Shown here: one piece after another, positions 52,993 through 61,186 of the stretch
How the letters are laid out: every line of letters begins with the position of its first letter
Numbering within the stretch: the stretch's first letter is position 1
Assembly (NCBI RefSeq): GCF_017875315.1
Contig: NZ_JAGGMM010000001.1
Location: 496,001-560,000 of the forward strand
Direction: 5' to 3'
From: Methanomicrobium sp. W14
GTDB lineage: Archaea; Halobacteriota; Methanomicrobia; Methanomicrobiales; Methanomicrobiaceae
DNA length: 64,000 bases
Program-made: the position numbers and the translations under genes
The notes under the pieces: model-generated
The model's input: the letters and a program-made list of their open reading frames with translations, nothing else
Databases searched by the model: none
Told to the model about the DNA's origin: nothing

Positions 52993-53880
52993 TTAGTTAT
53001 CAGTTATTCCAAGTTCGCTTCTTGCTTCCTCAATCAGGTCATAAGCCATTGCCTTAAGTTTTTTCCCGATAAGCCGGCCTTCTTCGGTTGTCTCTCCATT
53101 GTCCTCGATTCTCTGGTACCTTTTGCCGTCAAGAGAGAGAACCTCGGCTATAAGAAAACCGTCGCAACAGTACACGCCCTGCGGCGTGAAGCACCCTCCT
53201 TCAATCTCCTCCATAACTGCACGCTCAACACCAGAATCGTTTCGGGTCTGCGGGTCATCAAGGCATGAAAGGACCTTTTCTGTTTCAGGGTCGTCCCTGC
53301 ATACAACGGCAATAATGCCCTGGTTCGGAGACGGCACGTACCACTGCGGGATAAGCCTTGTCCCCGGAAGTTTCAGGCCCAAACGCTGCATGCCTGCCTC
53401 GGCAAGAACTATCGCGTCATATTCCCCTTCTTTCAGTTTTCTTATCCTTGTGTCGACGTTTCCCCTAAGCTCTTTTATCTCGGGGTTCAGGTTTCCCCTC
53501 AGGAGCTGTGCCTTTCGTCTCGTGCTTGATGTGCCTACGACTTTAACGTCCTCAAGCGGGCATTCATGGACAAGAAAATCACATGGGGAATCCCTTTTGA
53601 GGACTGCACAGGTTACAACGCCTTTTGGCCTTTTGGCAGGTATGTCTTTCATACTGTGGACCGCGAAATCGACCTCTCCGTTTATTATTGCGTCGTCAAG
53701 GGCCCTTACAAATATTCCCTGCCCCCCCACCTTGTGCATCGGGACTCCGGTTTTCTCATCTCCAGTGGTCTTCACCACCACAGTCTCGGTGTCTATTCCT
53801 CTTTCGTTAAGCATACCGCAGACTCTTTTTGTCTGGGCCATCGCAAGGCGCGAGCCTCTTGTACCTACCTTCAAAGACAT
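52993..53880 (-). CDS. hemC: Porphobilinogen deaminase (hydroxymethylbilane synthase)
   Basis: 295 residues. Polymerises four porphobilinogens. The N-terminus [17 protein letters not shown], the segment [44 protein letters not shown], and the dipyrromethane cofactor Cys in [14 protein letters not shown] are all present. Overlaps the hemL stop by 10 nt, so translation is coupled. Confidence 0.97.
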
Positions 53881-55112
53881 CTGCAGTAAGCCTCAGCTAT
53901 TTTTTCAATGTCGTCTCTGCTGTGAGCTGCAGAGATGAAATTGGTCTCAAACTGCGATGGAGGAAGGAATATTCCGGATTTAAGCATCTTCTTCCAGAAA
54001 AAGGAGAACTTTTCCGTGTCGCTCTCCTTTGCTTCTACGTAGTTTTTTGGGTGCGTCTTCCTGAAGAAGAGCTTGAACATGGACCCGAGCCTCACGAACG
54101 AGTCCCGGTACTTTTCAGGCAGAGTCTCCTGGATGGTCCGGGTATTTTCATCAAGCCTGTCGTAGAGGTTTTTGTCTTTGTGAATTTCCTCCAGGTTTGC
54201 AATCCCGGAGGCCATCGTAAGCGGGTTGCCGCTGAATGTCCCTGCCTGGTAGACAGGTCCTGCGGGTGCGACAAGCTCCATTATGTCGCGCCTTCCACCA
54301 AATACTCCTATGGGAAGACCTCCGCCTGCTACTTTTCCAAGAGTTGTAAGGTCAGGTGTTATCCCGTACTTTACCTGGGCTCCACCTATTCCTATCCTGT
54401 AACCGCAGATGACCTCGTCGCATATTAAAAGGACGTCGTTTTCGCGGGTTATCTTTCTGACTTCTTTGAGGTAGTCTTTTTCGGGAAGGACAGGCCCGAT
54501 GTTTCCCATAACAGGTTCGATAATAAAGGCTGCAATGTCATCACCTTTTGAGACAATCTCTTCAAGTGATTCTATATCGTTATACGGCACCTGTGCGGTA
54601 TGGGACACAATCTCAGGGATTACTCCGGCAGAGTCGGGGACGCCCATCGTCGTCGCACCGGAACCTGCCTGGATTAAAACACCGTCATGTGCACCGTGGA
54701 AACCTCCTTCGACTTTTATTATGTCTTTTTTTCCTGTAAACCCACGTGCAAGTCTTATTGCAGCCATAGTCGCTTCCGAGCCGCTTGAAACGAACCTGCA
54801 CATGTCAACCGAAGGGTGGTCGGTGATAATTCTCTCGGCAAGCTTAATCTCAAGTTCGCACGGAGTGCCGTAAAGCCACCCCTTCTCGAGCTGCGCCTTT
54901 ATAGCCTCTTCAACTTCCTTTGGCCTGTGACCGAGAAGAAGCGGTCCGTAGCCCATGCAGCAGTCTGTCAGGACATTGCCGTCTTCGGTTGTAATCTTTG
55001 ATCCTTCGGCCGATTTTACGTAGAACGGGTAAGGTTTTATCGCTCTTACGGGACTGCTGACTCCTCCAGGCATCAGTCCTTTTGCTTTTTCAAAAAGTTC
55101 ACTGCTTTTCAT
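53871..55112 (-). CDS. hemL: Glutamate-1-semialdehyde 2,1-aminomutase
   Basis: 413 residues from ATG 55112, preceded by GGGTGG. The frame is open to 55184, but the start is set by the ribosome binding site and by the typical N-terminus ([20 protein letters not shown]). PLP-dependent: the catalytic Lys lies in [18 protein letters not shown], with [14 protein letters not shown] before it. Makes 5-aminolevulinate in the C5 pathway. Overlaps hemB by 14 nt. Confidence 0.96.
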
Positions 55113-56082
55113 CAAGCCACCCTGCCGCATTTTCTGCATAATATGTAATGATAAGGTCTGCCCCTGCTCTTTTAATCGATACAAGGCTTTCCAGAACTAT
55201 TCTTTTCTCGTCAATCCACCCGTTTTCAGAGGCCGCCTTTATCATCGAGTACTCGCCGCTTACCTGGTAGGCTGCAACGGGCAGACCGAGAGTTGCGACA
55301 GAGGCTATTACATCATGATAAAATCCGGCAGGTTTTACCATCAAAATATCAGCACCCTCATCAAGGTCGGTTTCGGATTCGAGAAACGCTTCTCTTGAAT
55401 TCTCATAGGCCATCTGGTATGTCGAGCGGTCGCCGAAACTCATACCGGAGTCTGCTGCGTCCCTGAAAGGCCCGTAAAGTGCACTCGAAAATTTCGTTGA
55501 GTATGACATTACCGGGACCTCTTCGAACCCCGCGTCGTCAAGTGCCTCTCTTATTTTGAGGACCATCCCGTCAAGCATGCATGACGGTGCAACCATATCG
55601 CAGCCTGATTCTGCATGAGATACCGCAATACGGGCCATAAGCTCAAGCGATTCGTCGTTTAAAAGGTCAGGACCGCCGCAGGTCTCTCCTATTATCCCGC
55701 AGTGGCCGTGGTCAGTGTACTCACATGCGCACACATCGGTTATGACAACCATCCCCGGAACCTTTGATTTAATCTCCGCGACAGCTTTCTGGACGACTCC
55801 GTCTTTAATCCAGGCGGATGTTCCGGCAGGGTCTTTGTCTTTTGGGATTCCGAATATAAGCATGGCACGGATTCCCTTTGATTTTACTCTCTCTGCAACG
55901 GCGCCTGCTTCAGATACAGGATACCTGAACTGGCCGGGCATTGATTCAACAGGTTTTTTTTCAGAGATTGTTTCGTCAAAGAAATACGGTGCAATAAGAT
56001 CATCTTTTGTAAGTACCGTCTCCTTGAACAGAGGCTGGAGTATTCTTTTTCTTAATCTTCTAAGTCTTCTTTGGGGGAACAT
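55099..56082 (-). CDS. hemB: Porphobilinogen synthase (delta-aminolevulinate dehydratase)
   Basis: 327 residues, full length. Condenses two 5-aminolevulinates. [29 protein letters not shown] at the N-terminus, [17 protein letters not shown] with the Cys-type Zn site, [11 protein letters not shown] (Schiff-base Lys in [18 protein letters not shown]), and [15 protein letters not shown] are seen. Overlaps hemA by 31 nt. Confidence 0.97.
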
Positions 56083-57341
56083 GGTTTTTCACCTCTGGTA
56101 ATTGCAAGAACGAGTTTTTCTGCGTTTCTCATATCTCCACATTCAGCGCAGCTTCTTACTGCAAATGTGGCATCTGTAAGAAGTTTTTTTACTATAACTC
56201 TTGAAAAATCATCCAGTATCTCTTTTGTCCTGTCATCGGCATAAGAGATTCTTCCAAGGGCCTTGTCACGCTCCCGGACGCGGATAGATTCCGCCCATGT
56301 GTATAAATCACCAAGCGCCTCGTTTGCAGAGGCGCGATTTATGAGGGAGACAAAATTTTTTTCTTCCTCAAGGAGGTAGGCTTCGGCCATCTCGGCCTCA
56401 TGGCGGCGTGTGTCCATGTTGCTCTCGCTGACGCTTTTAAGGTCGTCGATTGTAAATACCTTCACGCCGTCGATATCCGGGATATTCTCGTCAATGTCCC
56501 TTGGCTGGGCGATATCAATGAGAATAAGAGGATTATTCATATGTTCTGTTTCTATGGGCCATCTCTGTTTATCCAGGGTCTCTTTAAGCGGTTCATAGTG
56601 GATGACAGTATGGGGGGCTGCGGTGCACGAGATGACTACATCGGAAAGCGAGATGTAGTGATAAAGCTCATCCATTTTTACCGCTTTACCTCCGATTATT
56701 TCAGCAAGTCTCTGTGCAGCTTCATAGGTCCTGTTGGTTACATACATAGCCATAAGGTTCTTGGCTGCAAGTGCCTGTGCGACCAGTTTTCCCATCTCGC
56801 CTACGCCTACCACAAGGATATGTCTTCCTTCAAGACTTCCCAAAAGCTCTTCTGCAAGCTGTACTGCAGCAGAACCAATGGAAACGGCCCCGTTGTTTAT
56901 ATGAGTCCGTGTTCTGACTTCCACTCCGGCGTGGACAGCCTTATTGATGCACAGGTCAAGGACAGGGCTGCATGCACCTGTCTCCTGCGAGACTGAAAGA
57001 GCTTTTTTAAGCTGGCCGATTATCTGGTCCTCGCCCACTATCATTGAGTCTATCCCGGATGCAAGCCTTAAAAGGTGGTTTAAGGTACTGCATCCGTCAA
57101 GAGTCCGGTAACCTTCGCGGCCTTTTGATTTTAGGTAACTGTCAAGAGTTTCAGCTTCACCCTGGACATAAATTTCAACCCTGTTGCATGTCTGGAGGAG
57201 GACAACTCCCTTGAAGTGCTCTCTTGCCTCCTCAAGGAATTCCTTTTCATCAGAAAACCGGAATTTCTCAAGCTGTTCAATATTTGCCTCGTGGTGTGTA
57301 ATCCCTGCACATGCCACAGGGGTCAGCAGTCTGTACTTCAT
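56052..57341 (-). CDS. hemA: Glutamyl-tRNA reductase
   Basis: 429 residues. Reduces glutamyl-tRNA(Glu) to glutamate-1-semialdehyde, the first step of the C5 pathway. The active-site Cys lies in LLQTCNRVEIYVQG; also VGEDQIIGQLKKAL, GAVSIGSAAVQLAEELLG, NADPH-binding LVVGVGEMGKLVAQAL, and the C-terminal dimer helix. The 4-nt overlap (ATGA) with sirC suggests translational coupling. Confidence 0.97.
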   Translation of the reverse strand: MKYRLLTPVACAGITHHEANIEQLEKFRFSDEKEFLEEAREHFKGVVLLQTCNRVEIYVQGEAETLDSYLKSKGREGYRTLDGCSTLNHLLRLASGIDSMIVGEDQIIGQLKKALSVSQETGACSPVLDLCINKAVHAGVEVRTRTHINNGAVSIGSAAVQLAEELLGSLEGRHILVVGVGEMGKLVAQALAAKNLMAMYVTNRTYEAAQRLAEIIGGKAVKMDELYHYISLSDVVISCTAAPHTVIHYEPLKETLDKQRWPIETEHMNNPLILIDIAQPRDIDENIPDIDGVKVFTIDDLKSVSESNMDTRRHEAEMAEAYLLEEEKNFVSLINRASANEALGDLYTWAESIRVRERDKALGRISYADDRTKEILDDFSRVIVKKLLTDATFAVRSCAECGDMRNAEKLVLAITRGEKPCSPKEDLED

Positions 57342-57961
57342 TGCAAATACTTTCCTCTGATGTAATTCATTGCAGAATCTCTGCTGTTTTCAAGTTCTTT
57401 CCATACGGTTTTGTCGTTAATTACAGCTTTCAGTATAGAATCTCTTTTTTTTTGATCAGGTTCGGCCTTTTTAAGATATCCTCTTGTATCCATCTGGATG
57501 TCTATCATTTCATCTATTAAAGGGCAGTGTGATTCAAGGTATTCCCTTATATATCGCGACATTCCCGGGCTTTTACCGCCGGTTGATATTGCTATCTGAT
57601 AATTTTTTCCGTTGATTACTGATGGAATAATGATGTCCCCGCAGTCGCCGCTGGCATTATTGAACAGGATATTTTCTTTACTGCATATTCTTTTGATCCT
57701 GTTGTTTAATCCGCTGTCGGAAGTTGCCGCGACAACAACATAACAGCCGTTAATTAAACATTTTATACCGTCATCCGAAAGCAGTTTCAGGTCCTGCTTT
57801 CTGGTGGTGATACCCGAACCAAAAAACTCGTCGCAGAATGCCCTGCTGACAACAATAACCTCTGCTTCAGGATAAAAAAAAGACGCTTTGCGAAACCCCA
57901 CTTTTCCTCCTCCAAAGATTAAAACTTTTTTCCCTTTGAAGTCATGAATTAGAGGAATCAT
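57338..57961 (-). CDS. Precorrin-2 dehydrogenase/sirohydrochlorin ferrochelatase-like protein
   Basis: 207 residues. An N-terminal NAD-binding Rossmann fold (KKVLIFGGGKVGFRKASFFYPEAEVIVVSR), SGDCGDIIIPSVINGKNYQIAISTGGKSPGMSRYIREYLE: the SirC/Met8p dehydrogenase signature. It oxidises precorrin-2 to sirohydrochlorin; many archaeal members are dehydrogenase-only. First gene of the operon, with its promoter in the 130-bp gap before larC. Confidence 0.93.
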   Translation of the reverse strand: MIPLIHDFKGKKVLIFGGGKVGFRKASFFYPEAEVIVVSRAFCDEFFGSGITTRKQDLKLLSDDGIKCLINGCYVVVAATSDSGLNNRIKRICSKENILFNNASGDCGDIIIPSVINGKNYQIAISTGGKSPGMSRYIREYLESHCPLIDEMIDIQMDTRGYLKKAEPDQKKRDSILKAVINDKTVWKELENSRDSAMNYIRGKYLQ

Positions 57962-58091: not shown

Positions 58092-59339
58092 TTATTCTCT
58101 GGACTTTATGCTATCTGTTTCCGACCGGAGTTTTTCACCGGTCACGGACTTCATCTGCCTGTTAACTTCCAATGCAACTTCCCTTAAAGAAACCTGAAGC
58201 TTTTGGGCTATTTTTTTCATATCTTCAAACTCCGGTTTGGCTGTGAATGTTTTGCCTTTGTGTTTTGAAATTTTGACCCTGACAGGATAAATGTTTCCTT
58301 TAATCCTGAAATTATACACCTCTCTCTTTCTTTCGGCAACAATCCGCGGCTCTTCTCTAATCCTTACGCCAAGAGTCCCCGTTTCTTTCATCAGGATTCT
58401 GGTTATCTCCATGTATTTGTCCTGTCCTGTAATCACGGACATGATAAACACAGGACGGTTTTTTTTCCCGAAACCCTGTGTCACGAATACGTCAACGGCA
58501 CCTGCGTTCAAAAGCCTTTCAATGGTATATCCCATTACCTCTCCTGTAACATCGTCAAGATTTGTTTCAAGGATAACTATCCTTTCGTCCGTAAGGTCAC
58601 TGATTTCACCTTCAATTACCCTGATGATATTATACCCGTTTTTACTTTCTTTAGTGCCGGCGCCGTATCCTGTTTTAACAGGAGTATATTGGGGAAATTC
58701 CTCTCTTACCACTGCAAGATTTGCCAGAAGAGCCGCACCAGTAGGGGTTGTAAGCTCCATATCACTGGAATTTTCTGCAACAGGTATCCTGTGCATGGCG
58801 CAGATCTCAAGTGCTGCCGGCGCAGGTCCTCCTATAATCCCGTTTTCCGTCTGTATAACACCGCTTCCAAGAGCGGGAGGAGTGGAATATATCGGACATT
58901 GGAGAAGTCCGGAATCTTCAAGAATCAATATCGGGCAGATTATGTCAAAGATTGTATCGGCAGAAAAAAAATTTTTGTTGTTGGAATTTTTGCCGTGAAA
59001 CCTGCTGTAGACCGTGTTTAAATCAGACAGGACTGAAGCGGCTTTTTCCGACGCATAAGAGGACATTTCCAGATAATCCAGCAGCCCGCAGAGCTCATTT
59101 TCAAGATTTACTGAGGGTTTACTACGGTTTTCGCTTATTTTTACGGAAAGCTGTTTTGCGTTAAAGCCTTTCTTAGCCGTGACTAATCTTGCGTCAAAAT
59201 TTGAGCATCCTTCAAGAGTAGAGACAGCCTCTGCTACTTTTTCTATCGATTCGGTACAGCCGGTAAGGTCGGCAAGAGACGCAGTAAGCATGTCTCCTGC
59301 TATTCCCCCGGCTTTAGGGTCTATTAACAGTGTTTTCAT
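58092..59339 (-). CDS. larC: LarC-family nickel-insertion protein
   Basis: 415 residues. LarC is a CTP-dependent Ni cyclometallase that makes the nickel-pincer nucleotide cofactor of lactate racemase. The motifs FDPKAG-like start (LLIDPKAGGIAGDMLTASLADL), TPTGAALLA, KTGYGAGTKE, and VLETNLDDVTGEVMGYTIERLLNAGAVDVF are clear. In many bacteria it is split by a programmed frameshift; here it is one continuous frame. It overlaps the upstream 616-residue gene by 4 nt. The window has no larA, so its client is unknown. Confidence 0.92.
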   Translation of the reverse strand: MKTLLIDPKAGGIAGDMLTASLADLTGCTESIEKVAEAVSTLEGCSNFDARLVTAKKGFNAKQLSVKISENRSKPSVNLENELCGLLDYLEMSSYASEKAASVLSDLNTVYSRFHGKNSNNKNFFSADTIFDIICPILILEDSGLLQCPIYSTPPALGSGVIQTENGIIGGPAPAALEICAMHRIPVAENSSDMELTTPTGAALLANLAVVREEFPQYTPVKTGYGAGTKESKNGYNIIRVIEGEISDLTDERIVILETNLDDVTGEVMGYTIERLLNAGAVDVFVTQGFGKKNRPVFIMSVITGQDKYMEITRILMKETGTLGVRIREEPRIVAERKREVYNFRIKGNIYPVRVKISKHKGKTFTAKPEFEDMKKIAQKLQVSLREVALEVNRQMKSVTGEKLRSETDSIKSRE

Positions 59340-61186
59340 TCTAAAGGCGGAAACTGTTCATTCAGTTTTTCGTATATCTTCTGTGAAATTCTTGCCGCTT
59401 CAAAAGCCTTATCCTTTGCGCCGGGTATTGCACGGGTCAGGTATGCACCGTTTTCAGAACCCTTCGCAGCTTCTTTTGCCTCCATTCCCATGAGGGCCGC
59501 AACAGCAGCCGGAACAACTACGTTTATTATTGTATGCCCTATATACTGAAGCTCCTGGGACAATACCGCTCCGCAGAAAAGTACAGTGGGCCAGTCAGGA
59601 TTATCCCTGTTTTTGCCGTTCAATGCAAAATCAGGAACTTCTTTGGCGCTTAGATTTTCAACGTGATACTCTTTGCCGTCAAGTTTTATGTCATATGATA
59701 TGTAGGAATCAAAACTCCAGTAATGCTCGGTAAACTTGTCTTTCCTTCTTCCGTGAGATTTGAGAGCTGTAAATTTCAGTTCAACTTCATGCCCGGTAAA
59801 GCCTGAAAGGATAACAGAGCCTCTTTTCTCGACATATGACTTTCTTTCCTCGTCCAGAATTCTCGATACGTCTGACACAGTTTTGCCGCTTTTAATCATA
59901 TCGTATGTACGCGATGCACGCCTGTGGATGGCTCTGTCCCTTACTCCTTCTGATGCCAGTATGCATGCTTTTGTCACTTTTCCACGGCTGACCTGTTCTG
60001 CCTTGCGGGATATTGTGTTAAGGCTGCACAGGGCAAGCTCGGGGTCTATAAAAGAATTCATCTTATAGTCCTTTATAGCCCCGGCGACAGCAAATACATC
60101 CCCTTCATGCTTTATTAAAAGCCTTAAGGCTGGAACACAGTCTCCTTCTACGTGACCCAGAGGGGGGTTTACAGGCCCGCCGGAGAACCCTGCTCCTATA
60201 CTTGCAGATTCTTCGAAGGCTGCAAATATCTCCGAAAGTGCCATTGAGCCTATTACAGAGGGACCCCCTATGTCCTTTAATATAAGACCAAAATCTCCCA
60301 GAAGTTTTGCAGTATCATACTCCTCGTGTGTTCCTCTGATATGCAGTTTTTCAGGAAGTTTGGCTGCATCTCTTGCGCCTTTCCCGGCAAGATACGATGA
60401 GTCAACGGTTCCGAACTGCCCAAACTCTTCACCCAGTATTGCATCAGGGTGTACAATCTCCATTGTAACAGCAGAGCCTATAAGTGCCGGCCAAAGCCCG
60501 AGAGGTGTAACTCCTGCTCCTGCCATGGCGTTAAGCATTGCTTCGGTTCCGATTTTTGCGGCGTTATAGGCAAGCTCAGGGATATTATAGTCTTCACCGA
60601 GTGCCGAATGACCGTAGATAGTCCCTCCCGAGATAAAAGGCGGAAGAATCCTGCCGTCAACTTTTGTAAGCTTTTTTTCTCCCAGAGCTTTGTATATCGC
60701 TTCATATGCAGGAAAAGCCTGTATCCTGTGCGTTGATTTTCCTGTCACAAGCGCAATTGCACTGGTTCTTGCAACTTTAGCATGAATTCTTGCTATTGCA
60801 CCAAGCTTCCTGTTGCCCAAAGGTACTCCTGACCTGGCACAGGAACCTGCGAAATAAGCCAGTGAGGCAACTATAAGTGCTGCGTTTTCAGGTGACGCTC
60901 CAGCTTCAATTGCGTGATTCACTGCTTTTTCTATAACCATGTCTACGGGGAGTTCTCCCTGTGAAGCGTCTACTACTGTCATCCTCCCGACAAGACTCAT
61001 TTCAGGACCTGCAACCGAGCAGAAAAGATCTTCTGCTATCGAGTTTGCAGCAGCGTATACCGGGATAACCAGAGAGCCGTGCCCTTTTGTGGCGGCCTCA
61101 AGTTTGTCGTTTGTTATAATATCCGGCTCAAATGCCGATGCCATGCATGCGGCAAAAACTATTTTCTCTTTTGATTCGTCGTTCAT
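59336..61186 (-). CDS. Conserved unknown protein coupled to LarC
   Basis: 616 residues, complete, soluble, no signal peptide. Rich in small residues in the N-terminal two thirds (SVAGPEMSLVGRMTVVDASQGE, LIVASLAYFAGSCARSGVPLGN, GAGVTPLGLWPALIGSAVTMEIVHP, GSMALSEIFAAFEESASIGAGFSGGPVNPPLGHVEGD). The C-terminal part holds KSYVEKRGSVILSGFTGHEVELKF and HTIINVVVPAAVAALMGMEAKEAAKG. I do not recognise it. Conserved His, Asp and Glu in HPDAILGEEFGQF and GHVEGD could bind metal. Translationally coupled to larC (ATGA), so a role in nickel or the pincer cofactor is suggested by context. Confidence 0.7.
   Translation of the reverse strand: MNDESKEKIVFAACMASAFEPDIITNDKLEAATKGHGSLVIPVYAAANSIAEDLFCSVAGPEMSLVGRMTVVDASQGELPVDMVIEKAVNHAIEAGASPENAALIVASLAYFAGSCARSGVPLGNRKLGAIARIHAKVARTSAIALVTGKSTHRIQAFPAYEAIYKALGEKKLTKVDGRILPPFISGGTIYGHSALGEDYNIPELAYNAAKIGTEAMLNAMAGAGVTPLGLWPALIGSAVTMEIVHPDAILGEEFGQFGTVDSSYLAGKGARDAAKLPEKLHIRGTHEEYDTAKLLGDFGLILKDIGGPSVIGSMALSEIFAAFEESASIGAGFSGGPVNPPLGHVEGDCVPALRLLIKHEGDVFAVAGAIKDYKMNSFIDPELALCSLNTISRKAEQVSRGKVTKACILASEGVRDRAIHRRASRTYDMIKSGKTVSDVSRILDEERKSYVEKRGSVILSGFTGHEVELKFTALKSHGRRKDKFTEHYWSFDSYISYDIKLDGKEYHVENLSAKEVPDFALNGKNRDNPDWPTVLFCGAVLSQELQYIGHTIINVVVPAAVAALMGMEAKEAAKGSENGAYLTRAIPGAKDKAFEAARISQKIYEKLNEQFPPLE

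Follow-up and report, generated by a model that had tools for sequence, protein, structure and literature searches.

Which protein uses the nickel-pincer nucleotide (NPN) in a methanogen whose larC gene is coupled to a gene of an undescribed family? To our knowledge, no protein family other than LarA has been found to use this cofactor. The question is raised by a stretch of 64,000 nucleotides from Methanomicrobium sp. W14 (the window), which carries on its minus strand a larC gene preceded by an open reading frame for a 616-residue protein, here called U. About 15% of surveyed genomes, for example those of cyanobacteria, contain larB, larE, and larC without larA, and NPN proteins that differ from LarA in sequence and fold have been predicted, with none named (PMC11796402).

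The W14 genome has a larB (on C4), a larE (C3:330975; 269 bits, cut-off 150), and a second, housekeeping larC (C1:789295), so NPN can probably be made in this organism. No convincing larA was found in the genome, the best match to Lar_N (PF09861) having an E value of 5e-5, compared to roughly 1e-30 to 1e-76 for the clear LarA proteins of the phylum, and LarA is therefore not the NPN user there.

An undescribed protein coupled to LarC

The U gene lies at positions 59336..61186 of the window and larC at 58092..59339, both on the minus strand, and the stop codon of U and the start codon of larC share the ATGA at 59336..59339, indicating translational coupling, as the earlier note had described. 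The spacing of the two genes in relatives is the same as or close to this 4-base overlap. Searches of Pfam, NCBIfam, and the PDB with the single sequence and with a profile gave no family match and no credible PDB match for U, no relatives were found in viral contigs, and we found no paper describing the protein in the open-access literature. A match to Fe-ADH_2 (E 0.0095), seen in only 4 of 25 cases, was rejected as not credible.

Homologues of U are found in archaea and rhizobia and are 41 to 82% identical to the protein of the window. Across 25 to 26 diverse homologues spanning this range, nearly 100 positions are invariant, including five histidines (H36, H193, H246, H282, and H345), five lysines (K87, K127, K150, K304, and K395), and many Asp, Glu, and Arg residues. 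The conserved His/Asp/Glu patches remarked on in the earlier note are thus real. Of the Gly/Ala-rich repeats also claimed there, the composition holds (Ala 13%, Gly 9%) but the repeats do not, since a profile self-alignment gave no internal repeat (best off-diagonal probability 0.4%). There is no clear transmembrane segment (top 19-residue hydropathy, 1.76). In-frame stops in some homologues are only apparent, as they are located at the natural C terminus. Two AlphaFold models built on shallow alignments, with pLDDT values of 56 and 59, are mostly alpha-helical at low confidence, and a Foldseek search with the first of them returned no credible match.

A sequence relationship to LarA (PF09861/COG3875) was not borne out. 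Alignment of the U profile with nine archaeal LarA proteins by hhalign indicated no relation (probability 0.1%), and U has no Lar_N or other Pfam match. LarA proteins have an NPN-binding lysine with the nickel-ligand histidine 16 residues on, and a catalytic histidine. The nine LarA proteins show H191-K201-H217; no Lys/His pair with this spacing of 16 occurs among the invariant residues of U. Like LarA, U has invariant histidines and lysines; unlike LarA, it is 594 to 616 residues long, compared to about 405 to 436 residues, is mostly alpha-helical in the low-confidence prediction, and is accompanied by a LarC, or a LarC C-terminal domain, of its own.

A dedicated LarC paralogue

The gene coupled to U is, by sequence, a genuine larC. 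Its product matches Pfam Ni_insertion with an E value of 9e-89 and clears both NCBIfam cut-offs, with 103.9 bits for LarC1 (TIGR00299; cut-off 90) over residues 85 to 242 (58614..59087, minus strand) and 122.4 bits for the LarC2 C-terminal domain (cut-off 50) over residues 254 to 375 (58215..58580, minus strand), the latter being homologous to PDB 6bwo. It thus resembles known LarC (TIGR00299, NF052512, PF01969) in being full length and in conserving the residues of the CTP-binding C-terminal domain, but it differs from housekeeping LarC in its clade and in a less conserved N-terminal domain. In a tree, 19 U-linked LarC proteins formed a single clade (support, 100/100) that excluded 21 LarC proteins of housekeeping or rhizobial type; long branches are present, and the split was nonetheless recovered in 200/200 bootstrap trees.

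The two halves of the U-linked LarC have fared differently. All 19 proteins retain the conserved C-terminal residues E258, T259, D262, D263, G266, E267, D283, K292, R295, G321, R326, R337, K356, and E370, whereas the N-terminal half drifts and retains fewer of the positions conserved in housekeeping LarC. In some lineages, U is accompanied by a stand-alone LarC C-terminal domain, and in these domains, from archaea and rhizobia, D283 is replaced by N in 13/13 and D263 by N or S in 9/13, sites that are otherwise invariant. Taken together, the retained residues, the N-terminal drift, and the stand-alone versions make the C-terminal domain the constant companion of U. U itself is the better conserved of the two proteins, with a median identity of 71% compared to 45% for its LarC partner, as expected of an enzyme with a maturation partner.

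The C-terminal domain of LarC binds CTP. In the LarC reaction, CTP serves to cytidinylylate the substrate (PMC11796402), and we may speculate that the CTP step is altered in the making of the cofactor of U.

A separate, fast-diverging clade with an N-terminal domain that has lost conserved positions could also mean that the U-linked LarC has taken on a new job apart from NPN, the insertion of a metal, nickel or otherwise, either straight into U or into some other cofactor. We regard this as quite improbable, because the full-length partners retain all of the conserved C-terminal residues of LarC and because U clusters with the NPN-specific LarB in Methanosarcinaceae and rhizobia and with LarE in rhizobia.

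The stand-alone C-terminal domains with the D283-to-N change form a distinct group (L053-L056 and L075-L085), and a possible relative of this group is Methanopyrus MK0293, an uncharacterised stand-alone LarC C-terminal domain whose structure has been solved (PDB 3c19). The joining of larC1 and larC2 by frameshifting occurs in Lactiplantibacillus. In one Archaeoglobus-like genome (G106; L068:9661-10889), a frameshift somewhere between residues ~77 and 97 interrupts the U-linked larC, which is intact in two relatives (L069 and L070); the interruption might reflect a sequencing error, decay, or recoding.

Co-occurrence of U with an additional larC

The phyletic co-occurrence of U and larC, to which the earlier note had pointed, was followed through 296 genomes of the phylum. 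U was found in 38 of them, larC in 277, and LarB in 281, and 156 have a LarA match that exceeds the cut-off. The genomes with U belong to the Methanomicrobiales and to putative Methanosarcinaceae, Methanocellaceae, and Archaeoglobus-like groups. Two or more larC matches are present in 34 of the 38 genomes with U compared to 14 of the 258 without it (Fisher p 6e-29, odds ratio 148, uncorrected for kinship), and the pairing is far beyond chance. It is not the case that U occurs mostly without larC, nor does a larA lie beside the U-linked larC in relatives.

U and LarA do coexist in Methanosarcinaceae, in Methanocellaceae, and in at least two Archaeoglobus-like genomes. Nearly all Methanomicrobiales have larB and a housekeeping larC, none has a strong LarA match, and most are without U, so U would not be the sole non-LarA user. 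The Methanomicrobiales may contain at least one more NPN user, or larB and larC may have another role there.

The pairing has exceptions: in G273, in G225, and in G192 and its relative L007, no larC adjoins U. In three other genomes the U gene is broken (G196, G282, and G244), with damage to the linked larC as well in G282 (broken) and G244 (truncated); in G003 and G212, U is missing and only a truncated U-type larC is left. This joint decay of U and its larC argues for a common function. The patchy distribution of U, and the likely gene transfer indicated by an Archaeoglobus-like U that is 68 to 69% identical to that of the window, might suggest that the two genes are neighbors without a functional link, brought together by chance or in a mobile cassette. 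Such a reading is very hard to credit given an association that holds in bacteria as well as archaea and over differing LarC architectures, a LarC clade specific to U, and the joint decay, and it is contradicted by the rhizobial operons described below. The locus at L086:7500-9400 (G282) is a joint pseudogene in which both U and its larC are multiply broken.

Gene order around U

U is directly followed by LarC in 18/19 Methanomicrobiales loci, and by LarC or a stand-alone LarC C-terminal domain in nearly all of the other archaeal and rhizobial loci. Three architectures can be recognized. In Methanomicrobiales and the Archaeoglobus-like family, U precedes a full-length LarC. In Methanosarcinaceae and Methanocellaceae it precedes a stand-alone C-terminal domain (larC_CTD), and in most Methanosarcinaceae loci larB and the housekeeping larC come next. 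The third architecture is that of the Rhizobium and Ciceribacter plasmids, where U is 41% identical to that of the window and the order is U-larC_CTD-larC-larE-larB, and in the Rhizobium plasmids a HoxN/NixA-type nickel transporter comes after larB; the rhizobial lar genes pass the NCBIfam equivalog cut-offs, and the transporter passes its NCBIfam cut-off. In the latter two architectures, the dedicated partner thus differs from a full LarC in consisting of the C-terminal domain only, with the altered D283.

An R. ruizarguesonis plasmid, by comparison, has the operon larA-larC-larE-larB. LarA occurs on 15 plasmids, which include none of the five that carry U, and the comparison of the two operons indicates that U occupies the place of LarA. 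On the Rhizobium and Ciceribacter plasmids, U is thus linked to larB, larE, and larC and holds the position of the user: like LarA, it is first in a larX-larC-larE-larB operon and is the sole gene that is not biosynthetic. The arrangement appears to be that of a lar operon in which the enzyme has been swapped.

An alternative is that U is an accessory of cofactor making, which would convert NPN to a derivative, supply nickel to LarC, or store the cofactor, with the altered stand-alone LarC C-terminal domain acting together with U and possibly keeping the cytidinylylated cofactor. This would agree with the presence of a LarC C-terminal domain beside U even when a gene for a full LarC is present too, and with the alteration of that domain at otherwise invariant sites. 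However, every gene of the rhizobial operon other than U belongs to NPN synthesis or nickel uptake, and U has the position that larA has elsewhere, so an accessory role would leave this operon without a user; moreover, the archaeal full-length LarC partners retain their conserved C-terminal residues. We therefore think it unlikely that U is an accessory rather than an enzyme that uses the cofactor.

In the window, U and larC lie upstream of a tetrapyrrole cluster of hemL, hemB, hemA, and cysG-like genes, identified from their translations (53871-57961), on the same strand as larC and directly downstream of it. This arrangement would fit a role of U in methanogen metabolism of tetrapyrroles or of nickel F430, the latter being a link that the earlier note had drawn. 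Rhizobia and Archaeoglobus make no methane with F430. The link is not supported, since hem or cysG genes are near U in none of the other archaeal loci and since U is present in rhizobia and Archaeoglobus-like genomes, and we consider such a role extremely improbable. The sole neighbors common to distant lineages in a consistent place are LarC and LarB, and besides the lar genes there are no conserved neighbors of U that hint at a substrate.

Proposed function of U

The occurrence of U beside NPN genes in distant lineages and in the place of LarA in some rhizobia makes it a good candidate for an NPN enzyme, and we consider U likely to be an enzyme that depends on NPN, has no detectable relation to LarA, and is matured by its own LarC. 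U would then resemble the predicted non-LarA NPN proteins (PMC11796402) in occurring with NPN genes, without LarA, and in being unlike LarA; the likeness to the predicted cyanobacterial NPN protein (PMC11796402) is by description only, and U is known here from archaea and rhizobia. Of the suggestion from which this analysis started, namely that U is a new client of the nickel cofactor of LarC, the core is strongly supported by genomic context, that is, by the adjacency in 18/19 loci, the LarC clade, the joint decay, and the rhizobial operons, whereas the F430 link, homology to LarA, and the repeats are not supported.

In the pathway that we envisage, LarB and LarE, encoded elsewhere in the genome, would make the dithiolated pyridinium mononucleotide, into which LarC would insert nickel, and the LarC paralogue coupled to U, as a putative nickel-insertion or maturation partner, would finish the cofactor or deliver it to U. 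The U apoprotein would then use NPN, presumably for hydride transfer as NPN performs in LarA, in which a hydroxy compound may be racemised, epimerised, or oxidised. Among the invariant lysines and histidines, one would hold the cofactor and nickel, probably with NPN bound through a lysine thioamide or a noncovalent equivalent and a histidine on the nickel. The U-larC coupling, the co-occurrence, the joint decay, the LarC clade, the operons with U in the position of LarA, and the lack of a detectable relation to LarA are observed; the NPN binding, the hydride chemistry, and the residue roles we infer. A further proposal, which seems to us about evenly balanced between right and wrong, is that U founds a second, structurally unrelated class of NPN enzymes with a dedicated LarC or LarC C-terminal domain and possibly a modified, e.g., cytidinylylated, cofactor.

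If NPN binding holds, U would be the first family of NPN enzymes other than LarA. A second class would extend this nickel biochemistry beyond the 2-hydroxyacid isomerases and a methanogen protein that is highly conserved but has no name would gain a function. As a concrete candidate that can be expressed, with versions from rhizobia that can be cultivated, U turns the matter of other NPN users into a question about one protein.

Other lar gene arrangements were also seen on plasmids. In Pseudosulfitobacter and Sulfitobacter, larE-larB pairs with no larC or larA beside them are present (L131:7199-8672 and L132:7199-8672), and such pairs recur on many related plasmids, adjoining genes for 2-hydroxyacid and sugar-acid catabolism.
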